64,000 bases of DNA from Elusimicrobiota bacterium (GTDB lineage Bacteria; Elusimicrobiota; Elusimicrobia; F11). The stretch spans positions 1 through 64,000 of the forward strand of contig JAJVIP010000010.1 of NCBI GenBank assembly GCA_022072025.1, given 5' to 3'. This document shows, in pieces, positions 14,367-33,607 of the stretch; within the stretch, counting starts at the first letter, position 1, and each line of letters starts with the position of its first letter. A model generated the notes under the pieces. It did no database searches. It was not told the DNA's origin and saw nothing but the letters and a program-made list of their open reading frames with translations. A program made the position numbers and the translations under genes.

Positions 14367-14960
14367 TTAGACGTAGGTTTTGAGACCTCGCTTATAAAAG
14401 ACTTTCCGTAGGCGTTCGATTTCACGATTCAGCGTTGTCCGCTTCATGTGGAGGGCCCGCGCCGCATCGCTGATGTTCGTTCCCGACAACAAAAGCTCGC
14501 AAACCCGCTTTTGGACGGAATTCAGATCCTGAAAAACCGCCCGGAGGTCGAACTGGAGATCCTTTTCCTCATGAATCACCAGCTTTTCCATGCGGCGAAA
14601 GATGAATTCCTCATCCACGATTGCTTTGCCTTCGTCTTCCAACCCGGCCTCACTCACATTGTGAATCGATTCACTGAATAAATGCACCTTCCGCTTATCA
14701 GCATGCACGGCGTCGATCATGTCCCGAACATAGTTGTCGAGAATCCGGCTCATCACGGTCCTCTCCGAAGCCGTGATTTCGGTCCATCCCATCGTCGTTT
14801 CACGCTTCAAATGAATCTGGAGCAGAAGATCCTGTCTGAGATCTTCATAGTCCCCCGGTGTGAATCCGTGCTTGCCGACTAATCCCTTCGCCTTTCCTTC
14901 TGCCAACGCCAACTCCCATTGCGCGAACGCAACGTATCCGACCCGATTTTTGTCTGGCAC
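14367..14960 (-). CDS. phage sigma-70-like regulator
   Basis: 197 aa from GTG 14960, which has an excellent GGAGGA seven bases upstream; a longer frame to 15008 lacks a site. The N-terminal half has DYEDLRQDLLLQIHLK, similar to the region 2 helix of sigma factors. The C-terminal half, SVQKRVCELLLSGTNISDA followed by ARALHMKRTTLNREIERL, is a region-4 helix-turn-helix. It heads the early operon, so it may be a phage sigma or late-gene activator. Region 2 promoter-melting residues are not obvious, so it could bind DNA without core polymerase. Confidence 0.65.
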   Translation of the reverse strand: MPDKNRVGYVAFAQWELALAEGKAKGLVGKHGFTPGDYEDLRQDLLLQIHLKRETTMGWTEITASERTVMSRILDNYVRDMIDAVHADKRKVHLFSESIHNVSEAGLEDEGKAIVDEEFIFRRMEKLVIHEEKDLQFDLRAVFQDLNSVQKRVCELLLSGTNISDAARALHMKRTTLNREIERLRKVFYKRGLKTYV

Positions 14961-15009
14961 CTGCGCCTCCTCCGGGTCGGATCCGGATGGAGGTGGGCCC
15001 AAACGCAAA

Positions 15010-15417: not shown

Positions 15418-15453
15418 AAAAAAGGCCGTCATCCGATGAGATGGACGACAGCC
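15418..15453 (-). terminator. intrinsic terminator of the sigma/Panacea/TGT-like operon
   Basis: On the minus strand GGCTGTCGTCC pairs with GGATGACGGCC over 11 positions (two G-T pairs) with an 8-nt loop and is followed by six T. It lies 39 nt after the stop of the 62-aa gene. Confidence 0.8.
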
Positions 15454-15492
15454 TCCGTTTTCCGGTCAGCCGTGCTTAGAGATGATTACAGC

Positions 15493-15681
15493 TCAGAGAA
15501 ATTTGATTTTCTTTTTCACGTATTCCGCAGAAACAGGAATGCCGTTTTGTACCTGTACCTTTGCCAGTTCGCCGTGATTAAGATCCTGACAATGGTTAAT
15601 GAATTTTATCCAAGCCGCGTGTAATTCGCTGGGCTCGTCGTTTCTCTTTTTATCGAATTGATATGCGTCCTTGGTTTCCAT
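15493..15681 (-). CDS. 62-aa protein, last gene of the cargo operon
   Basis: ATG 15681 is preceded by GGCGGAGGAAAGTGGAC, a strong ribosome site lying inside the end of the TGT-like gene, which this gene overlaps by 76 nt in another frame. The product has a charged N-terminus (METKDAYQFDKKR), a Trp/His-rich middle (AAWIKFINHCQDLNHGEL) and a basic tail ending in VKKKIKFL. It resembles no family I can name. Its coupling and position before the terminator argue that it works with the three upstream genes, for example as an accessory or immunity factor; this is inference. Confidence 0.65.
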   Translation of the reverse strand: METKDAYQFDKKRNDEPSELHAAWIKFINHCQDLNHGELAKVQVQNGIPVSAEYVKKKIKFL

Positions 15682-16967
15682 GTCCACTTTCCTCCGCCAT
15701 CTAGGCCAAAATCCTGCAGGGTGTCTGCCCAGATTTTTAAATGGTTCGCTTCGGCAACTTCTGACGTCTCGGCGAGGCGGGCTGCGTCCTTGATGCGGAA
15801 GCACACGTCCTCAAGAGAGTGACTGGCCACGCGGTTCATTTCGTTTCGCTGGACGTTTAGAAAATGTCTTTCGCAAAACCCCGGGCGGCTCATAACAGAG
15901 ACAAATGACTCGAGCCTCGTGCCGTAGGCTTCGGAACAAAGTCGGCACTGGCATCGGAACTCCGGCACCGCCATTAGAATTCCGAGCGCTTGGTTCAGCT
16001 TGTACGCACGATGAAGTGGTCCGATATAGAACTTGGGTTGCACCTCGGGCGGAGGAGCCCAGCGATACGAGGACAAGTTTCGATAAGACTTGAAGGAAAG
16101 ATCGCAAGAAAACGCCGAAAGACCGTAGTTCGATAACAGAATTGAAAGAAACCCACCGTAGATTTTGACGATTGGGTGCTCCGCGTCCGAGAGTCCGGAG
16201 ATCAACCGTATAAGTCCTCTAATGTGCGCCGGCGATGCCTTTTCCTCCTCGAACCCGTTCACCCACAAAAACGTCCCGTCTGCTTCGGTGGCCGAAAAAT
16301 CCCGAACAATTCTTTCAATCGAGGCAAAATCCGCTAGGCACCCAGGCGTAAAGCAGATCCCTTGATAAAGCCTTTCTCCTTGTTGCTTAAATTTTCGTGA
16401 CATCTGGAATAGCTTGAGGGTTCCGTCGTACCAATCGTCGCCGACTTTCTTAATGTGAAAGAAGGGAGCAATCAGCACCGCTGGCTTTACAGCGTAGCTT
16501 TGAAAGCGACCGCTATCCCCTGCCAGCAGGTCATATTTGTCGAGAGGCGCTTGTGAAAAATCCAACTGTGGCGACGAAAGCTTTGACCGTTGAAATTCAA
16601 GACAGTTTTCTGAGATCTCCTGGAGAATGCCTGTCTGGGTCGTAATGTCCTTCGCGAAGACCTTCACCTTCCCGACTCGCTGTTCAAGGAACGCGCTATA
16701 CCGCGATGCGACCGTTCGAAGCGAATTTCGGACGCCTGGCTTGTCCCTCTGCGTGACGTGCTTGGGATCGAGCCCGAACATATAAAGCATCGGCTCTACC
16801 CAAAACGGTTTCCGTAATCCGCGCACCACCTCTTCAAGCGATTTAGCGAGCGTTGCGCCTACCTGAAACCCATCAAGAAGCGGAGCCGCGTCGATGATTA
16901 CCTTCTTGTCGCTGACGCGAGGATGAAGGAAAATTCTGAACGTTCCGCGGGGATCACTTTTCTGCAT
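15606..16967 (-). CDS. TGT/DpdA-like protein of the cargo operon
   Basis: 453 aa from ATG 16967 (GGGAGG five bases upstream; overlaps the previous gene by 14 nt). The C-terminal part holds CQCRLC (Cys 339, 341, 344) followed 24 residues later by a His (368, in CERHFLN). This is the C-x-C-x2-C...H zinc site of tRNA-guanine transglycosylases, where the spacing is about 26. The preceding GGFLSI and SYRNLSSYRW segments fit the late strands of a TIM barrel. TGT enzymes swap guanine for a 7-deazaguanine in tRNA; the DpdA branch does so in DNA. No preQ0 synthesis gene is near, so the substrate is open. The N-terminal 200 residues are poorly conserved relative to classic TGT. Family call is moderate. 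Confidence 0.5.
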   Translation of the reverse strand: MQKSDPRGTFRIFLHPRVSDKKVIIDAAPLLDGFQVGATLAKSLEEVVRGLRKPFWVEPMLYMFGLDPKHVTQRDKPGVRNSLRTVASRYSAFLEQRVGKVKVFAKDITTQTGILQEISENCLEFQRSKLSSPQLDFSQAPLDKYDLLAGDSGRFQSYAVKPAVLIAPFFHIKKVGDDWYDGTLKLFQMSRKFKQQGERLYQGICFTPGCLADFASIERIVRDFSATEADGTFLWVNGFEEEKASPAHIRGLIRLISGLSDAEHPIVKIYGGFLSILLSNYGLSAFSCDLSFKSYRNLSSYRWAPPPEVQPKFYIGPLHRAYKLNQALGILMAVPEFRCQCRLCSEAYGTRLESFVSVMSRPGFCERHFLNVQRNEMNRVASHSLEDVCFRIKDAARLAETSEVAEANHLKIWADTLQDFGLDGGGKWTWKPRTHINSIKRETTSPANYTRLG

Positions 16968-17793
16968 CGTGGCCTCCCTGGCTGCCATTGTTCGATCCGT
17001 ATGGCCTCCTGAGATACTTTTCGCGCACCAGCGACCGTGTCGTCGTTTCCTCATATTTATTGTAGGTGTAATCCATGAGTTGGTCAGTCGACATGCGGCC
17101 ATAGGTATCAACAATCTTTTTTATCTTTTCAATAATTTCCGGCTTTTCCGCAGTCACAGCATCTGCAATTTTCCGAGCAATTGTCTTTCCACGATCCGTT
17201 AGCTCGTAAACAGTCTCCACTTTCTTCTCATTTGGAACTCCCAATTCGCAATTTCCATCTCGATTAGAATTGGGATGCAATTTTCTGAGAATGTTTCGGC
17301 TTTCAAGATGATCGACATCCTTTGGAACATTTTCGTCAAATGCCCCAAAGTTATAGGCGTAATGACCGTAGAAGTTATCAATCAAACTATCGCACTCCCC
17401 TTCTTTTCCAAGCAAGAAGAGCAACTTGACGAGCTTTGTACGACCCCACACCTGATTCATAAAGTGAAGAAGCAGAATCAAAATATCTTCACGCTGATCA
17501 AGGAAAGATCTCAGATTTTCAGAGAGATTTTCGAGAGGCTTTAAACTCGCCAGTTGCTCCTCGACCTTCGAGAAAAGACGGGCGCTGACCTCAGAGGATA
17601 GCGGTGGATATTGACCATGCGCGAGATAATTCCGCGCCGCAGTTAGCGCCATGATTAACGCACCCAGTTCTTTAGACTTTTCTCCATTAGCCGCCACATA
17701 ATCCTCAACAGACGGCGCGGTTCCGGCGTTCAGTAAGTCGAGATAATCTGAGAGCAATTGAGCCTCTCGTTGTTCGTGTTCAAAACTAGTCAT
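16954..17793 (-). CDS. Panacea/DUF4065-like protein with sigma-regulator-like N-terminus
   Basis: 279 aa. The N-terminal 90 residues (LLSDYLDLLNAGTAPSVEDY) resemble the short N-terminal segment found on partners of ECF sigma factors and on some serine kinases. Residues from about 105 to 260 match the Panacea/DUF4065 pattern: GRTKLVKLLFLL, YNFGAFDENV, a winged-helix-like YELTDRGKTIA, and a final MSTDQLMDYTYNKYEETTTRS. Panacea domains are known as antitoxin modules that pair with varied toxins. The ATG is inside the end of the sigma gene with AAGGAGGG in front. It could be an anti-sigma factor, an antitoxin for the next gene, or both. Confidence 0.6.
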   Translation of the reverse strand: MTSFEHEQREAQLLSDYLDLLNAGTAPSVEDYVAANGEKSKELGALIMALTAARNYLAHGQYPPLSSEVSARLFSKVEEQLASLKPLENLSENLRSFLDQREDILILLLHFMNQVWGRTKLVKLLFLLGKEGECDSLIDNFYGHYAYNFGAFDENVPKDVDHLESRNILRKLHPNSNRDGNCELGVPNEKKVETVYELTDRGKTIARKIADAVTAEKPEIIEKIKKIVDTYGRMSTDQLMDYTYNKYEETTTRSLVREKYLRRPYGSNNGSQGGHDAEK

Positions 17794-18595
17794 AGGATTG
17801 CCCTCCTTTTTCCGAGACCACTACCGGATCCCATAACTTTGCTAGCTGCGCGGAGGCCCTATACTTCAGTGCCCTAACGGCCTCATCCGTGATTCCCATG
17901 ATACCTGCCGTCTCTTTTACGCTCATTCCATTAAAGCCCCGCAACGTCAGCACGAGACGGTGCTCCTCTGACAATTGCGCCATCAACTTTTCAATCTCCA
18001 AATGTGTTTCGCTTTCATCATTCGATCCCCAACCGGTCGCGGCATCCGCGGCGAAGGCGGACAACTCGATCTTGCGCCGGTTCCGGCCACTAATTTTTGG
18101 ATCTCCATCCTTCATATCTATGCCATCCACATTCCCTTCGTATTCCTGACTGCTGTCGCCCAATGGCACATTACCTCCATCTTGTTGCTCGGAATTTTCC
18201 AAAGGCCATTGACCCTGTCCGTTTCCATCCTGGTGAGAGTCCGGATGCCGCTGATCTCCGTTACCCACCACAACAGCTTTTGGGTGATGCCTGGCCTCTT
18301 CACGGTAGAAGCTGCGCGCTGTGTTGCTGGCAATCACGTACAGCCAGTTTTGCAAAGGGCATTCGCCGCGAAAGCGGGTGATTGAGTGAAGGGCTTTAAG
18401 AAGGGTCTTTGACAATATGTCCTGCACGTCGGAGAGGTCCCTCGTCCATTCAAGTGTTCGAGGGTCTTGGAAGGTGCGGGGTCTCGCGGCCCGGCAGATC
18501 ATCTGGTAAGTCGGTTCTTTGTACCGATTCCAGAACTCCTGCCGAGCATCGAGATCGCCTGCTTTGAGGCGGCTTATTAGTTCTTGTTCGTCCAA
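17786..18595 (-). CDS. ECF-type RNA polymerase sigma factor
   Basis: 269 aa from TTG 18595 (AGGGGAG nine bases upstream). Region 2 spans about residues 1-100 (DLDARQEFWNRYKE; DLSDVQDILSKTLLKAL; NWLYVIASNTARSFYRE). Region 4 spans about 200-255 (LSEEHRLVLTLRGFNG and ETAGIMGITDEAVRALKYRA). Between them is an unusually long Gly/Asn/Asp-rich linker of about 90 residues. It probably directs polymerase to its own operon and possibly to phage or defence genes. It is the first gene of a tight four-gene unit. Confidence 0.85.
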   Translation of the reverse strand: MDEQELISRLKAGDLDARQEFWNRYKEPTYQMICRAARPRTFQDPRTLEWTRDLSDVQDILSKTLLKALHSITRFRGECPLQNWLYVIASNTARSFYREEARHHPKAVVVGNGDQRHPDSHQDGNGQGQWPLENSEQQDGGNVPLGDSSQEYEGNVDGIDMKDGDPKISGRNRRKIELSAFAADAATGWGSNDESETHLEIEKLMAQLSEEHRLVLTLRGFNGMSVKETAGIMGITDEAVRALKYRASAQLAKLWDPVVVSEKGGQSYD

Positions 18596-18687
18596 GCTCG
18601 AGTGCTCCCCTCTTACGCCTTTTGACTGTCACCGAAGATAAGGCGCACGAAAATCGAAAATGTGACGAACTTGGTTCAAAAATGGAC

Positions 18688-18717
18688 AAAAAAATGCCGG
18701 GCGAGGGAGTCCCGGCA
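18688..18717 (-). terminator. intrinsic terminator upstream of the sigma operon
   Basis: TGCCGGG and CCCGGCA (7-bp stem, 9-nt loop) are followed on the minus strand by seven T. It lies about 95 nt before the sigma start, so it either shields the operon from leftward read-through or acts as a leader attenuator. The remaining gap between 18596 and 18878 holds only this and the direct repeat below. Confidence 0.75.
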
Positions 18718-18878: not shown

Positions 18879-19082
18879 GTGGGCGATATAGAAGATCATC
18901 GAAGGTTATTAACGTTCAAAGAAGCCGCGCTTCGGCTTCGAGTTTCACCCTATACGTTGAAGGAGTGGGTTCGCCTGAGAAAAATCCGGGCCGTTAAATT
19001 TACTTCAAGAATAATCCGGCTCGAGGCGGAAGCTATCGATCAATTTATCCAAGTTCACCGAGTTATTAAAAAGGAGGTCTGA
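18879..19082 (+). CDS. excisionase-like MerR/HTH_17 DNA-binding protein
   Basis: 67 aa from GTG 18879. The fold LTFKEAALRLRVSPYTLKEW, then a basic RKIRAVKFTSRIIRLE wing and an AIDQFI helix is the winged HTH_17 module of phage excisionases. It ends 3 nt before the integrase start and its last codons carry the AAGGAGG of the integrase. It likely binds the att arms or the repeat at 18788 and sets the direction of recombination. Confidence 0.8.
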   Translation: MGDIEDHRRLLTFKEAALRLRVSPYTLKEWVRLRKIRAVKFTSRIIRLEAEAIDQFIQVHRVIKKEV

Positions 19083-19085
19083 AAT

Positions 19086-20135
19086 ATGGCAGTCGCATTA
19101 CGACAACGAGGGAAATCCTATTCCGCCTATTGGCGTGAAGATGGAAAGGTAAAGGAGAAATCGCTGGGGAGCAATATGCGACTGGCGCGAATCGAGATGT
19201 CTGCGATAGAGAAGCGACTTGATGACAAGAAGAACGGCGCTGAAAAGGAAATACTTTGGGAGGACTACGTCGCACGATATATGAATTTTTGCGAGACCAA
19301 CATGGCACCAGCCACGGTGGTAAGGGTCCGAGTAGTTTTCTCCAATATCAGAAAATATATGCCCCTGAGAAATTTGCGGGACATGACTCCTGAATTTTTG
19401 GAGGAATACAAACTCGCCAGAAAAAATGCGGGCATCGAGCCATCGACCATCAACCGCGAAATCGTCACGGTAAAGTCATCGATGAAGAGCGCCGCCCAGT
19501 GGGGCTATGCCTTGCCGAATATTTGGGGCGTTCGGAAGATGCCGACCGTGAAAAAGCGGCCGGTCTTTTTCACGCATGAGGAAGTGGAGAAGCTGCTTGC
19601 CGCCGCCGACCCGCTTTGGCAAATGGCCATCCGGTTGGGCGTGTTCCTTGGCCTTCGTCGCGGAGAAATGCTGAATCTTCGGTGGGACGATATCGATTTT
19701 CAAAACGACATCGTTCGCATAAAACCAAATGAAGAATGGCATCCAAAGGACAGAGAAGAGAGAGAAATTCCACTGCACCCCGAATTAAAATCTCACCTGA
19801 ATCGATGGCGGGCCGCCTGTAAAAACGATGAACAGCGAGTGATCCCTTGGTATTACAAGGTCATCGCCTTTTCTCAAGCATTCAGTCGCATCATTCAACG
19901 AGCCGGCATCAACAAGGGATCGCTCCACACGCTTAGGCACACCTTCGCCTCACATTTGGCGATGGCAGGAGTGGATTTACTCCGGATTGGACGAATGATG
20001 GGGCACTCGACGGTCGTCACAACGCAGATCTACGCCCACCTTTTATCATCCAGCCTCAAAGAAGCGATGACCTTCATGCCTGCGTTTGGATCGAATGGGG
20101 CGCTAAACAGCCACGTTGCAATTGAACGCTCTTAG
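19086..20135 (+). CDS. phage tyrosine integrase
   Basis: 349 aa with a complete catalytic set: Arg191 (GLRRGE), His281/Arg284 (HTLRHTF), His307 (MGHS) and Tyr316 (TTQIYAH). N-terminal residues 1-55 are an arm-binding-like basic region and 55-140 a core-binding domain. ATG 19086 has an ideal AAGGAGG. It lies at the right edge of the left phage block and is the only gene there on the plus strand besides its excisionase, so the attachment site is expected near 20136-20210 or at the 3' end of the next gene. No matching left att was found by eye. Confidence 0.92.
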   Translation: MAVALRQRGKSYSAYWREDGKVKEKSLGSNMRLARIEMSAIEKRLDDKKNGAEKEILWEDYVARYMNFCETNMAPATVVRVRVVFSNIRKYMPLRNLRDMTPEFLEEYKLARKNAGIEPSTINREIVTVKSSMKSAAQWGYALPNIWGVRKMPTVKKRPVFFTHEEVEKLLAAADPLWQMAIRLGVFLGLRRGEMLNLRWDDIDFQNDIVRIKPNEEWHPKDREEREIPLHPELKSHLNRWRAACKNDEQRVIPWYYKVIAFSQAFSRIIQRAGINKGSLHTLRHTFASHLAMAGVDLLRIGRMMGHSTVVTTQIYAHLLSSSLKEAMTFMPAFGSNGALNSHVAIERS

Positions 20136-20208: not shown

Positions 20209-21561
20209 TTAAGATCGTCTACAGCGTCGCTTGAAATCTTCTCCCAGATCATCATTAATCCGACTTACTTCTTTACTCTTGATAAGGGTTTTGTCCACCA
20301 TTAGAAAATATGAGGATTCTTTCTTGTCAGCCAGGACTTTCAAAATGGGCGATTTCTCCGAAATCTCAGATCGCTCATGACCTTCGATGACGAGAATCGA
20401 ATTATGCTTATCCGTTGAATATGCGGAAAACTTTACCCCATCGAGCACCGTCAACTGCCAATCTTCGTATTTCTTTTTTTCAGCGATACTTCGACTCGCA
20501 ATTTCGGCTTCGTGGGGTTTCAATCGGATTACTTCAGGCAACCGCCGCTCATAAAAAATACGGGCAAGCGACCGAAGATCATGGGAGACGCCTTTCCCTT
20601 TTGTCGCAATTAGTTCAATGGCCTGCCATACATCCCAATCTTTGAGCGACCGGTAGAGAGAAAAGTTTCCATGACGGAACTTATCGATGTCAACCTTCGC
20701 AGGCGATCCTCCATGAAACCTAGACATGAACCTTTTCTGGTTCGTTAGATAGTTTCTCAAGGGATCCGTGAGTTGGTTTGCGATTCCTTTTCCCTGTTCA
20801 ACGAAGTCGCTAAGTTTTCTTAGGAAATTAATCAGCAAATATTCTGCGGCGATGAGCTTGGGGTGGTGATAGACGTGTTGCGTCATCAGACGGCGGGCCA
20901 GAAGATAATGCTCAAGGGCACCAATTCCTTTGCCGGAAATGGCGATGCGCTTGGTATTTCCAACCTTTTCAATCTTCATGCAATGCAGAATCCACTCCAA
21001 GTCATAATTCCCGTATGGCACCCCACAGAATTTTCCATCCCTCAATAAGTAGTCCATCCGATCCGCATCCAAGCCCGACGATACGATGTCCCAAATCGTT
21101 TTTGGGATCACGCCAGGTTTTTTGTCATCTCGCTCAATAATTTGACAGATCAACTTTGGATCTCGCACAACCTTGCCGAGATCACCGCTCAAAAATTCCT
21201 TCGTCCAGTTCTCATGGCGGATCAACGGCTTATCGTCATGCTCCGTCAACTTTTCGAAAGAATGAGAGAAAGGGCCGTGCCCTATGTCATGCAGAAGCGC
21301 TGCCAGAACCAATGCTTCCTGATCGCGGCCGCCAATTTTTAATTTCTTGGTGATCCGATACGCCAAATATGCGGTTCCGATGCAGTGACTAAACCTTGTA
21401 TGAACTGCGCCGGGGAAGACCAAGTCGGCAAGGCCCAGTTGTTTGATATGCCGCAAGCGCTGAAAATCAGGGAGGTCGATGATCACCTTGATCATCTTTT
21501 TCCATTTGTCATCGACTTCCATCATCCCGTGGATGGCGTCGTTCATGCCATGCATGCCCAT
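20209..21561 (-). CDS. HD-domain phosphohydrolase (COG1078, dNTPase-like)
   Basis: 450 aa. Metal ligands of the HD fold are visible: His59 (TRFSHC), His91-Asp92 (ALLHDIGHGPFSH) and the later Asp in GLDADRMDYLLRDG. The opening NDAIHGMMEVDD and RLRHIKQLG are typical of the COG1078/SAMHD1-like family, which hydrolyses dNTPs or other nucleotides. Some members deplete dNTPs against phage. It abuts the integrase end, facing it, so it is either the host gene at the insertion site or prophage-edge cargo. Confidence 0.8.
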   Translation of the reverse strand: MGMHGMNDAIHGMMEVDDKWKKMIKVIIDLPDFQRLRHIKQLGLADLVFPGAVHTRFSHCIGTAYLAYRITKKLKIGGRDQEALVLAALLHDIGHGPFSHSFEKLTEHDDKPLIRHENWTKEFLSGDLGKVVRDPKLICQIIERDDKKPGVIPKTIWDIVSSGLDADRMDYLLRDGKFCGVPYGNYDLEWILHCMKIEKVGNTKRIAISGKGIGALEHYLLARRLMTQHVYHHPKLIAAEYLLINFLRKLSDFVEQGKGIANQLTDPLRNYLTNQKRFMSRFHGGSPAKVDIDKFRHGNFSLYRSLKDWDVWQAIELIATKGKGVSHDLRSLARIFYERRLPEVIRLKPHEAEIASRSIAEKKKYEDWQLTVLDGVKFSAYSTDKHNSILVIEGHERSEISEKSPILKVLADKKESSYFLMVDKTLIKSKEVSRINDDLGEDFKRRCRRS

Positions 21562-29848: not shown

Positions 29849-31952
29849 TCGCTAATCCTCCTTTCAATGGCTGCTTAACATCCTGAACATAATCCGAAAC
29901 GGCTGGAATTTCAAGTATAAATCGCGCACCCAGGGGATTTTGAGAATTTTCGGCAAAAATATTGCCTTTATGCATTTGAATTATCCTCAAAGCGTTCGAA
30001 AGTCCCAACCCTCCCATACCTTCCTTCCCGTTTTTGATTTGGAACCGCTCCTTGAAAATGTTTTGAAGGTGTTCTTCTGGAATCGTATCTCCTTCATTTG
30101 TGAATTCAATTCGGTAGTTCCCATTTTCTCTTTTTCCAACAACCTGAATCGAGCCATCTTCCGGCGTGTACCGCAACGCATTGCTAATCAAAATCTCAAA
30201 AACGGATTTTAGGTCACCGGAATGCCCCAAGAGATTGGTTAAATCCAGATCGCGCAGATCCTTGGTCAAGCTGATTCTCTTTTCCTTTATTGATATTTCG
30301 TGAGAGCCTAGCCCTTCCGAAATAATTTTATCGATATCAATCGGAATCAATTCATACTTATCGCGCAAGGCCTCATCTGCAATTCTTGAATCTTGCAGCA
30401 AGAAATTCAAAAACTCACCGAGTTTTTTCATCGTCTTTTCGATTCTCGGAACAACTCTTTCCAGGCCTGAATCCATGCCATTTTGAGACGCCCTTCTTAC
30501 AAGGAAATCAACGCCAGAGTTCAAGGGTTTTAGTGACTGATTCAGTGTATGCGCCCAATTAATAGTTTCTTTCGCAGCTCTTGAAACGGCCAACACATAG
30601 CGGAGTGCGGTGCTGGTTTCGGTCACTATGATGTTTAGCCGGTTGATATCGCTGACAAAATAAGGATGGCCATCGGTCTTGACGCCCAACGTTAATAGCC
30701 CTGAAACTCGGTCCAAAACAATGAGTGGTGCTATAACTTCAGCTTCTAGACGGTTGAAAGTTGCCTCAATTTGGGCATATGCATCCTTGTCCAGGAATCC
30801 TTCAGCTTCGCTTTTCACTAATACCTGTTTATGAGCCTCAAGATACTTGATCAGAGGATCGGATGCTTCAATCGGATCAACAATCCTTTTTGAAAGTCCA
30901 ATCTGGCCTTCGACTTGAAATATATTTTTGTCGTGCTCTAGAATCAATACAGCACACTGATTTGTGGGGAACTCATCCCGCGAAATTTGAGTAACAGTTT
31001 CCGCAAGATCAAAAATCTTATACCCAGCTTCTTTAATGCGATCAGATAGTGTTCGAATGCGTTCTATTCTCTTGGGATCGGCCACGCCACTATGGATACG
31101 AAGAGTGGTTATCCATTCATAAATTCTTGATTGAATAAGCGGGACAATCAAACACATTCCAAATACGACAACACCAATTCGAGAACTGCCAGTCAGAATT
31201 AAAATAGCCCCGAAACAAGCTAGCCCAGTGAGCCCCGAAGACAGTAAATATTTTGTCGCTTCTCTAAATAACAATCTTAAATCCCATAGCCTGTATCGAA
31301 GAATGGCGTAAGACATGATTAACCCGTAACTAATCGTGAAAAAATTATCAATCGGAGGCGCATTAATATCCAAAACCAAACTGAAATAAAGGGTCCCTCC
31401 GGTAACGAGAATGAAGTATGCGAGCAGAAAATATTTAACCTGGTTTCGTTTCGCCGCCTTGCTCTGTTGCATGAACTGCCACAAAATGAAAACACAGTAA
31501 GAAACGCATGCCGTATACAGACCCGTGAATACATACCAAAGAGTGGCCGGCTCTGCGATGCTCCGGTAGTCAAATCCCCTTATGACCTCTTTTATAAACC
31601 ACGGTCTTAATGCTGGAATCCAATTTAAAATCAGGAAAAAAGCAGAGCCTGAATAACTCAAGAACAGGATTCTTTTTCTTTTTTGATAGGTATTTGTGAA
31701 GGTGAGAAGAAAATGGAGGTAAAAGCTAGGGGCGAGGCAAGCTCCCGTGTAAAGGATTAGATCGAATGCATAGGCGTATTTATGATCAAAATAACTTTCG
31801 CCTAAACATCCCAGCACCCAAAGACAAATACTGAAACTTACTAGACCGAATCGCTTTCCAAGATCCCGATTATCTGCCTTTCTCCAAACGATCGTGCCAA
31901 CGGCGGTTGTAAATATTAAAGCTACCGAGGCGGAGAAGGCGTAAAAATTCAA
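29829..31952 (-). CDS. multi-pass sensor histidine kinase
   Basis: 707 aa. Residues 1-280 hold about eight membrane helices like those of the cyclase downstream; 290-450 are GAF-like. The kinase core has a divergent H-box NWAHTLNQSLKPL (His468), N-box ISNALRYTPEDG (Asn591) and G-box GMGGLGLSNAL (645-655). It overlaps the PilZ-HMGR gene by ATGA and the receiver by 20 nt. The H-box lacks the usual H-E-x-R, so autophosphorylation needs testing. The ligand may be lipid-like given the FadL gene, which is inference. Confidence 0.85.
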   Translation of the reverse strand: MNFYAFSASVALIFTTAVGTIVWRKADNRDLGKRFGLVSFSICLWVLGCLGESYFDHKYAYAFDLILYTGACLAPSFYLHFLLTFTNTYQKRKRILFLSYSGSAFFLILNWIPALRPWFIKEVIRGFDYRSIAEPATLWYVFTGLYTACVSYCVFILWQFMQQSKAAKRNQVKYFLLAYFILVTGGTLYFSLVLDINAPPIDNFFTISYGLIMSYAILRYRLWDLRLLFREATKYLLSSGLTGLACFGAILILTGSSRIGVVVFGMCLIVPLIQSRIYEWITTLRIHSGVADPKRIERIRTLSDRIKEAGYKIFDLAETVTQISRDEFPTNQCAVLILEHDKNIFQVEGQIGLSKRIVDPIEASDPLIKYLEAHKQVLVKSEAEGFLDKDAYAQIEATFNRLEAEVIAPLIVLDRVSGLLTLGVKTDGHPYFVSDINRLNIIVTETSTALRYVLAVSRAAKETINWAHTLNQSLKPLNSGVDFLVRRASQNGMDSGLERVVPRIEKTMKKLGEFLNFLLQDSRIADEALRDKYELIPIDIDKIISEGLGSHEISIKEKRISLTKDLRDLDLTNLLGHSGDLKSVFEILISNALRYTPEDGSIQVVGKRENGNYRIEFTNEGDTIPEEHLQNIFKERFQIKNGKEGMGGLGLSNALRIIQMHKGNIFAENSQNPLGARFILEIPAVSDYVQDVKQPLKGGLANESGGV

Positions 31953-33607
31953 TCTTGTTCCTCTGAATCAGCCACCTTGCGTGATCGTAAAGCAAGGTCG
32001 GCGGCGGCAAACTCCCCACTCGCTAAAGCACCGCATATCGAAATTTCTCCGGCCAATAGAATTGCAGCCACGATTTCAGCGAATTTCTTTGCTTTCCCTG
32101 CACCATAGCATCCCATTAACTTAAGAGCCTCCTGCTGAGGAGGAAGGGAAGTTCCGCCACCAACAGTTCCAACAAGAAGTTGCGGAAATTTCGTTGTCAC
32201 TTTTAAATCTCCTGAGGCAATCACCTCAAACGTCAGTATACCGTGACTTCCATTAACGACTTGAGCGACATCTTGCCCTGTTGCGATAAAAATACCGGCC
32301 AGTCCATTCGCGAAATGAGCATTGATGCCGATCATGCCGGCCTGCATCCCGCTTAACAGTGCGGAATACCAAAACGCATAGACATCTTCCGGCTCTGCTC
32401 GCATATAACGCTTTACTAAGGCTCTCGGAAGGATAACCTCTGCAGTGACGTCTTTTCCATAGCCCATGATGAAATTGTAAAAGGACGGTTTTTTGTCCGA
32501 CGAGAAGTTAGACCGCAAGAAATATGCCTGAGGTTTTACCTGATCGACGATCCAGCGACAGGCATGATCTGTGGCAATATTGATCATATTTAGACCCATC
32601 GCATCACCCGTAGTGTAGGCGAAATTCAAAGCCACTCTATTTCCTATCGGGAATGCAGTGATTCTTATCAATCGCCCGAAACGCGTGGTTTCCTGGGCTT
32701 TAAGTTTTATTACACTGTCATTTTCTTTTATCCACGCGATAAACCGTACGCTTTCATTGAGATTCTTAAATGTGAAAACTGGGTCAAGGTGCAACTCGTC
32801 TTTATGGATTGTGACCCGCGCGCCTCCTGCTTCGTTCACCAATAATGCCCCTCTATGATAGGACTCAACCATGGTTCCCTGCGTCGTCGCAATTGGGACA
32901 TAAAATAGACCTTGGGCATATTGCCCCTGAACCAATATCGGACCGGCGATGCCAAGTGGGACGCTTGTAATCCCCACGAGATTTTCAATGTTTTGATTCA
33001 ACTTGGTCGACTCGTATGGGAAATTGGAAATGTGCTTCAATTGGCTCCCAGTTTTTGCCTCTAACCACCGCACCCTTCTGCTGACCGCAGAAAGTTGATA
33101 ATCACGTTCTTTTTTCTTGCGCGGTAACATCTCTGAGAAGCCGACAATTCCAGTATTGTTGCGTCGATTTTTTAGGATCCTTTTATTTTTGGTGCTGGAT
33201 TCTTCCTTCTTTCGTCGATCCTCTGCATTTGTCCTTTGATCCAATAGCATCTCGCGAGTATCCGTAGGTCGATTTACATATTTCTTGAAAGTTTCTTCTT
33301 CAACACTATTTTGAAAAGACAAGAACTGAACACCATAAATTTTCCGCTCATCATTTCGCCAAACAATTTTTCCAATCCCTTTGACGATTTGTTGCGACTG
33401 CGGCAGAATCGCTTCAATGTTGATTGTCTCAACTCCAGGAATTGAAGTGTCTGTGGTCAAGCTTAAACCGGTTTCACTGATATTTTTTGTGGAACCCATT
33501 TGAAAGGATACTCCATCGTTAGTTGAGTTATTGAGCTCAACTCGAATCGGTAACCTTTCAACCAGCCTAAGCGCCCGGCGTCTATTATGAGGGGATTGAA
33601 TCTCCAT
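31949..33607 (-). CDS. PilZ domain fused to HMG-CoA-reductase-like domain, two catalytic residues changed
   Basis: 552 aa. Residues 1-110 are a PilZ domain (NRRRALR at 8-14 and NISETG at 42-47). Residues 190-540 are HMG-CoA-reductase-like: ENLVGITSVPLGIAGP, DKKP (Lys372/373), TTGDAMGLNM (335), ATGQDVAQV (Asp446). The catalytic Glu of ATTEG is Gln243 (ATTQG), and the C-terminal S-H-x-x-H-N-R segment is replaced by AADLALRSR, so the catalytic His is lost. Lys and Asp remain. It is probably no ordinary mevalonate enzyme; it may bind CoA thioesters under c-di-GMP control. First strongly coupled partner of the kinase gene. Confidence 0.8.
   Translation of the reverse strand: MEIQSPHNRRRALRLVERLPIRVELNNSTNDGVSFQMGSTKNISETGLSLTTDTSIPGVETINIEAILPQSQQIVKGIGKIVWRNDERKIYGVQFLSFQNSVEEETFKKYVNRPTDTREMLLDQRTNAEDRRKKEESSTKNKRILKNRRNNTGIVGFSEMLPRKKKERDYQLSAVSRRVRWLEAKTGSQLKHISNFPYESTKLNQNIENLVGITSVPLGIAGPILVQGQYAQGLFYVPIATTQGTMVESYHRGALLVNEAGGARVTIHKDELHLDPVFTFKNLNESVRFIAWIKENDSVIKLKAQETTRFGRLIRITAFPIGNRVALNFAYTTGDAMGLNMINIATDHACRWIVDQVKPQAYFLRSNFSSDKKPSFYNFIMGYGKDVTAEVILPRALVKRYMRAEPEDVYAFWYSALLSGMQAGMIGINAHFANGLAGIFIATGQDVAQVVNGSHGILTFEVIASGDLKVTTKFPQLLVGTVGGGTSLPPQQEALKLMGCYGAGKAKKFAEIVAAILLAGEISICGALASGEFAAADLALRSRKVADSEEQD

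Follow-up and report, generated by a model that had tools for sequence, protein, structure and literature searches.

Proteins with a Panacea domain neutralize many partners by binding (PMC8832971, PMC10440598). Here we describe a locus that shares with these PanAT systems the Panacea domain, a short and tightly overlapping operon on a mobile element, and a partner that adds to a diverse set. It lies in a stretch of 64,000 nucleotides, hereafter the window, from an Elusimicrobiota bacterium (assembly GCA_022072025.1, contig JAJVIP010000010.1, positions 1–64,000) and consists of four overlapping genes on the minus strand, which encode an extracytoplasmic function (ECF)-type sigma-70 factor, a Panacea (SocA/DUF4065-like) protein with an N-terminal extension, a protein resembling tRNA-guanine transglycosylase (TGT), and a 62-residue accessory protein. 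In contrast to PanAT, the partner here is a TGT-like, predicted barrel protein, a third gene (nuclease or sigma factor) is present, and the Panacea protein carries a sigma-linked N-terminal extension. Targeted searches of the two PanAT papers (PMC8832971, PMC10440598) found no mention of a TGT-like partner.

The reading that we favor, with a confidence somewhat short of even, is that the locus may be a prophage-borne cassette for defense (superinfection exclusion), gated by a sigma/anti-sigma pair and built around a Panacea protein and a catalytically altered barrel protein of the TGT superfamily. What the sequences themselves show is the set of genes and their order, the co-occurrence of the core genes, a promoter-like motif that is confined to the module in two relatives, an extension that goes with the presence of a sigma gene, and the remote homology of the zinc segment to TGT. 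We infer the defense role from context, and likewise the sequestration of the sigma factor by the extension, the neutralization by Panacea, the trigger and the target.

In the CASP-sigma/Csx30 pair of type III-E CRISPR, a sigma factor is released from its inhibitor, and its motif is found in the promoters of neighboring genes of the locus (PMC10028731). The likeness to the arrangement proposed for our locus is that a soluble partner holds an ECF-type sigma factor with a link to antiviral immunity, and it reportedly extends to CalpS/CalpT of type III CRISPR (PMC11417357). Unlike both, the present locus has no CRISPR and no protease, the proposed inhibitor is the Panacea protein, and the cargo is the TGT-like protein. 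No anti-sigma-cleaving protease was recognized in or next to the operon in the window or at two related loci, L013 and L015.

TGT-superfamily proteins are also found in the phage or defense context of Dpd/DpdA (PMC6884629); here, however, the catalytic aspartate is apparently not conserved, Pfam gives no TGT match, and no DpdB, DpdC or preQ0 genes were seen. BREX-related capture (BRC) systems with GNAT and TGT genes (PMC12839542) are a further case of a TGT-superfamily protein recruited to an archaeal or bacterial defense operon, but our locus is much smaller, has no PglZ, HerA/FtsK, DUF6079 or DUF4007, and has Panacea instead, with PD-(D/E)XK proteins in its relatives. The Panacea proteins match the PADLOC candidate PDC-M19A (1e-16 to 2e-7), whereas none of the PDC-M19 models recognizes the TGT-like or the nuclease genes, and we therefore do not regard the locus as PDC-M19. 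The combination of Panacea with a TGT-like protein is undescribed in the open-access literature found by targeted searches, and its novelty is to that extent provisional.

The operon and its core proteins

The four genes overlap by exactly 8, 14 and 76 nt, and each is preceded by a G-rich Shine-Dalgarno sequence. Gene 1 (17786–18595, minus strand, 269 aa, TTG start) encodes the sigma factor; gene 2 (16954–17793, minus strand, 279 aa) the Panacea protein; gene 3 (15606–16967, minus strand, 453 aa) the TGT-like protein, founder of the family studied here; and gene 4 (15493–15681, minus strand) the 62-residue protein. This layout, with its coordinates and overlaps, is as described in the original prediction, and the assignments of genes 1 and 2 made there hold as well. 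Gene 1 has Pfam matches above cut-off to Sigma70_r4_2 (3e-11) and Sigma70_r2 (2e-6), and matches NCBIfam TIGR02937 at 2e-17. Gene 2 remains under the cut-off of Pfam SocA_Panacea (E 0.007; 17.8 vs 25.7 bits), yet it matches the PADLOC profile PDC-M19A at 4e-12 and can be aligned column by column with annotated SocA/DUF4065 proteins (nine Panacea relatives). Gene 4 has no family match in Pfam, NCBIfam, PADLOC or PHROGs and is the least conserved part of the operon, with a homologue visible in one of three relatives (L014, downstream of the TGT-like gene).

The N-terminal extension of gene 2 comprises about 95 residues (17506–17793, minus strand) and is proposed to be a sigma-binding, anti-sigma-like segment. 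Such extra residues are present only in Panacea proteins encoded after a sigma gene, while the Panacea proteins of sigma-free loci start directly at the Panacea domain. A profile of the extension gives weak matches only, one of which is the N-terminus of a kinase in another Elusimicrobiota genome (E 0.32). We note that in this locus (L086, 1–2278) the Ser/Thr kinase gene overlaps an ECF sigma gene. The resemblance to this kinase suggests that the extension may be a sigma-linked segment.

For gene 3, neither Pfam nor NCBIfam, PADLOC or PHROGs offers a credible family match, and the Pfam TGT profile PF01702 fails to match the window protein and reaches one of 15 family members at E = 0.046. The protein does contain the zinc motif noted in the original prediction, C339-x-C341-x2-C344...H368 (15864–15953, minus strand), the three cysteines of which are kept in 12 of the 15 members. 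Through this segment a nine-member family profile reaches archaeal TGTs at E 1e-5 to 1e-3 in genome-scale searches, where the long Asgard matches were called TGT by reading their sequences (TDSGTFQ and FFDSASY motifs) and not by profile. A 15-member profile compared with three sequences yields archaeal TGT matches at 2e-6 to 4e-7, and hhalign of the zinc segment against TGT gives a probability of 78% (E 2e-5). Judging from these matches, the C-terminal zinc segment of gene 3 is a remote homologue of archaeal TGT.

Statements on conserved residues are based on the 15-member alignment. Invariant or nearly so are an acidic residue at position 58, Q126, P168, G271, GL282-283, Y314 and the Cys/His site. 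No acidic residue is conserved across the 15 members at residues 282–292, the position of the TGT catalytic aspartate in strand 8, a placement derived from the order of the motifs and an alignment of low confidence; comparing the barrel halves by global hhalign was uninformative. The catalytic aspartate of TGT is thus apparently not conserved in this family. Consequently, base insertion of the DpdA type is doubtful, and we file the protein as neither DpdA nor a TGT enzyme.

An AlphaFold2 model of gene 3 built from five sequences has a mean predicted local distance difference test (pLDDT) of 60 and a predicted template modeling score (pTM) of 0.67. In Foldseek searches with this model, TGT structures are the most frequent among the weak top matches (probability up to 0.99, E 0.06), and the first three matches are to an unrelated protein. 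A second family member, modeled at pLDDT 53, gives mixed TIM-barrel matches that include TGT. A TIM-barrel fold is therefore likely, as predicted by these models, though not proven. Sequence searches of the PDB returned nothing useful, and a viral fold library yielded a single high-probability match, to an unnamed protein (A0A516LV99).

A Dpd-like role, in which the TGT-like protein inserts a modified 7-deazaguanine base into phage or host DNA, has in its favor the TGT homology of the zinc segment and the precedent of DpdA2 proteins, which are likewise too diverged for DpdA to find them by PSI-BLAST (PMC6884629). Set against this are the lack of a conserved aspartate at the position of the TGT nucleophile, of DpdB, DpdC or preQ0 genes among the flanking genes scanned, and of a PHROG match; more broadly, no DpdB, DpdC or 7-deazaguanine synthesis genes are among the window proteins scanned, which is not an exhaustive scan of the genome. 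We consider this role highly improbable and have downgraded it. Of the earlier description of gene 3 as TGT/DpdA-like, the remote TGT homology of the zinc segment therefore stands, while the DpdA-like base-insertion enzyme is not supported, given the apparent lack of a conserved aspartate, the Pfam result, the low-confidence barrel and the absence of 7-deazaguanine genes from the neighborhood scanned. The idea that gene 3 is a displaced housekeeping TGT was also rejected, the host having its own TGT elsewhere, and matches in L005 and L006 (E 4e-4, within frames of ~990 aa) were judged to be chance.

Distribution and partners of the core

Relatives of gene 3 were sought in 341 Elusimicrobiota genomes and those of gene 2, by profile, in 336; all relatives discussed are among the matches listed in the collections searched, which set the sample. 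Full-length relatives of gene 3 (35–39% identity) are found in three other genomes, and the gene 2 family, as found by its profile, is present in exactly the four genomes with a full-length gene 3. A profile of the whole TGT-like family adds just one divergent Elusimicrobiota copy (L092). Recurrence of the gene order in other genomes had been set beforehand as a test of the original prediction, and the order sigma–Panacea–TGT-like is indeed kept in L013 and L015; in L014, Panacea is followed by the TGT-like gene and the contig ends inside the Panacea gene. Since the order recurs and both genes occur in the same four genomes only, the arrangement is beyond chance. We note that the divergent copy (G030:C2:63000-70000) lacks the Cys site and has as neighbors, identified by eye, a Ser/Thr kinase, methyltransferase genes and a tyrosine integrase.

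All three Elusimicrobiota relatives lie in prophage-type DNA, with an integrase nearby where flanks exist, and L013 is also an IMG/VR viral contig. The module adjoins a large serine recombinase in L013 and L015, as opposed to a tyrosine integrase in the window. Just downstream of the cargo, the window has a gene for a second sigma-factor-like protein (14367–15008, minus strand; phrog_1740, 7e-5) with relatives in L013 and L014, and a zinc-ribbon gene is common to the window and L013. The shared sigma-like gene indicates that the window, L013 and L014 are related phages, a kinship that inflates the count of four Elusimicrobiota loci. The context of L015 differs, and the module has therefore moved as a unit.

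Outside Elusimicrobiota, tblastn from gene 3 leads to Haloarcula and Arthrobacter plasmids, where the TGT-like gene has genes for Panacea and for a small PD-(D/E)XK-like protein as its neighbors, and a genome scan leads to a Heimdallarchaeota contig that combines Panacea, a PIN remnant, PD-(D/E)XK-like and TGT-like genes. On this contig (L016, 3555–4602) the TGT-like gene is apparently broken by a frame change, and the PIN neighbor is shortened. The nine-member profile adds five full-length relatives and four weaker ones from further genomes of that (Asgard) archaeal phylum; their operons contain Panacea, PIN, PD-(D/E)XK-like and TGT-like genes or variants thereof, with the PIN domains confirmed by Pfam. 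Neither scans of viral contigs with single Haloarcula, Arthrobacter and Heimdall proteins and a Haloarcula alignment nor tblastn of a phage collection found relatives. As judged from these family searches, the TGT-like protein is a member of a new family.

Of 19 TGT-like loci, spread over Elusimicrobiota, Haloarcula, Arthrobacter, Asgard archaea and an IMG/VR prophage, 18 have a neighboring Panacea gene (the exception is L027). In this count, Panacea identity was verified by profile for most but not all loci, L028 and L029 are near-identical, and L069 has a weak Panacea match, which is to DarG. Thirteen of the 15 non-Elusimicrobiota loci, and none of those in Elusimicrobiota, carry a PD-(D/E)XK-like nuclease gene, assigned from a D...ExK motif and weak matches to Pfam REase/UPF0102. 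SIR2 genes adjoin the TGT-like locus in L007 and L045, and an N-6 methylase gene does so in L011. The integrase-side position of the cargo is shared by the window, L013, L015 and L045. It is from the SIR2 and methylase genes and from this position that the defense reading is drawn. L045, an IMG/VR prophage contig, carries between 5968 and 11650 a repressor, the TGT-like gene and SIR2, followed on the opposite strand by PD-(D/E)XK-like and Panacea genes, with a large serine recombinase beyond, and may be regarded as a candidate compact defense island.

These gene neighborhoods bear on two other explanations. In a type II-like toxin-antitoxin system for prophage maintenance, the TGT-like protein would be a tRNA-modifying toxin, Panacea its antitoxin, and the sigma factor and the 62-residue protein regulators. 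Panacea antitoxins do neutralize highly diverse toxins by direct binding (PMC8832971, PMC10440598), and the genes overlap with the antitoxin first. However, a two-gene architecture is not what is found: the window and nearly all relatives have three to four genes, the relatives with a nuclease between the two, unlike PanAT pairs, and the family apparently does not retain the catalytic aspartate of TGT. We therefore consider this explanation rather improbable. Of the original suggestion that Panacea acts here as an antitoxin, the Panacea domain itself is borne out, but the simple antitoxin–toxin pair is not, most relatives having the PD-(D/E)XK-like nuclease as a third gene. The nuclease could alternatively belong to a recognition-type restriction system, in which modified bases or tRNA fragments would be recognized by the TGT-like barrel, which would in turn bring in the PD-(D/E)XK protein, the Elusimicrobiota read-out being the sigma factor. 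The nuclease in 13 of 15 loci, with the sigma factor in its place in Elusimicrobiota, would suit this scheme, as would the retention of the acidic residue 58 and Y314 when the nucleophile apparently is not; yet the role of Panacea would go unexplained and the binding is conjectural. The scheme is very unlikely in our estimation.

A broader form of the defense reading, which we put forward as a possibility with more reserve, is a cross-domain immune module in which Panacea is paired with a TGT-derived barrel without transglycosylase chemistry, serving as a sensor or as an effector of new chemistry. Its outputs would be interchangeable: archaea and many mobile elements would use a PD-(D/E)XK nuclease, accompanied by PIN or SIR2 proteins, and Elusimicrobiota prophages an ECF sigma factor that is autoregulated and kept in check by a fusion of Panacea and anti-sigma. 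If true, a widespread unnamed module (Panacea, TGT-like, nuclease or sigma) would be added to prokaryotic conflict systems, Asgard archaea included, TGT-fold proteins would be in use without the catalytic residue of TGT, and sigma/anti-sigma logic would gate an immune cassette in a further, CRISPR-independent case.

Promoter motif and proposed gating

A promoter-like motif, GTTACTTTTT-N12-CG[CA]CTAAT, one concrete form of which is GTTACTTTTT-N12-CGCCTAAT, is found upstream of the sigma gene in all three loci that have this region, with two copies in L013, one in L015, and a degenerate copy in the window. The motif was defined by inspection of L013 and L015, and the window provides the only independent instance. 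Further copies lie just past the TGT-like gene in L015 (0 mismatches) and L013 (3 mismatches); the exact second copy in L015, from 9345, precedes the gene of a 73-aa DUF2188 protein that follows right after the TGT-like gene. Copies with at most one mismatch are confined to this module in the 2.8-Mb genomes of L013 and L015. With up to three mismatches, background matches appear that a reversed control pattern equals or exceeds, and weak copies of this kind therefore carry little weight on their own. The putative ECF-sigma promoter of the window, GTCACATTTT-N11-CGCCTTAT (18638–18666, minus strand), lies upstream of the sigma gene, 43 nt from its start, and is the sole match with at most three mismatches in 64 kb, where simple shuffles yield 0.3 such matches per whole window. 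Such a pattern is what an autoregulated ECF factor would be expected to leave, and the restriction of near-exact copies to the module in two 2.8-Mb genomes implies autoregulation, in line with the self-regulation originally proposed.

On the defense reading, the protein of gene 2 would hold both the sigma factor and the TGT-like protein until an infection signal breaks the complex and frees the sigma factor. The freed sigma factor would then transcribe the operon from its own promoter in a positive feedback, and the TGT-like protein would accumulate and act on nucleic acid (tRNA or invader DNA), stopping the infection. In sigma-free relatives, the same core would have a PD-(D/E)XK nuclease as its output, often with a PIN RNase. 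Several observations weigh against this reading. Neither Pfam nor the extension profile search relates the extension significantly to any known anti-sigma domain, and the barrel is weakly supported, with pLDDT values of 60 and 53 and no Foldseek match at E ≤ 0.001. Because three of the four Elusimicrobiota loci (window, L013, L014) belong to related phages, their conservation is partly shared descent. In L027 and the divergent L092 the TGT-like gene has no Panacea companion, and in the window the promoter motif is degenerate, with 3 mismatches and a spacer of 11.

The same sigma factor could instead regulate the phage life cycle, with the sigma factor and the Panacea anti-sigma forming a lysogeny/induction switch and the TGT-like protein acting as a ligand sensor, with no part in defense. 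The operon does adjoin the integrase and excisionase genes, the same phage has a second sigma-like gene (14367–15008), and among phage genes outside the module the motif is found at one, the zinc-ribbon gene next door in L013. However, the motif was not found at phage structural or replication genes, and where the core lacks a sigma gene, on plasmids and in archaeal chromosomes, it is accompanied by nucleases and SIR2, a setting in which a phage switch would be senseless. A life-cycle switch is therefore unlikely in our view.

Boundaries and neighboring genes

The operon is enclosed by intrinsic terminators on the minus strand, as first described. The downstream one lies at 15421–15456. The upstream one, at 18688–18717, is a hairpin followed by U7 (folding z −2.8), whose loop is too long for the terminator scanner and which was identified by folding instead; it insulates the operon against read-through. 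Rfam and tRNA scans of the operon region returned nothing.

The DNA around the operon is a prophage. On one side are genes for a DNA methyltransferase, a portal/minor head protein, a terminase, a primase, a helicase, a single-stranded DNA-binding protein, a Sak4-like annealing protein and an exonuclease. On the other side are an excisionase/helix-turn-helix gene (18879–19082, plus strand; phrog_66, 5e-7) and then a tyrosine integrase gene (19086–20135, plus strand; phrog_1, 1e-64), so that the operon does sit, as had been stated, between integrase and replication genes. Immediately past the integrase, a 450-aa HD-domain phosphohydrolase (20209–21561, minus strand) could be a host gene or a further cargo gene. 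Farther along, an open reading frame at 31949–33607 (minus strand) joins an N-terminal PilZ domain (5e-8) to a 3-hydroxy-3-methylglutaryl (HMG)-CoA reductase (3e-108), an unusual union of a c-di-GMP-type domain with an enzyme of the mevalonate pathway.

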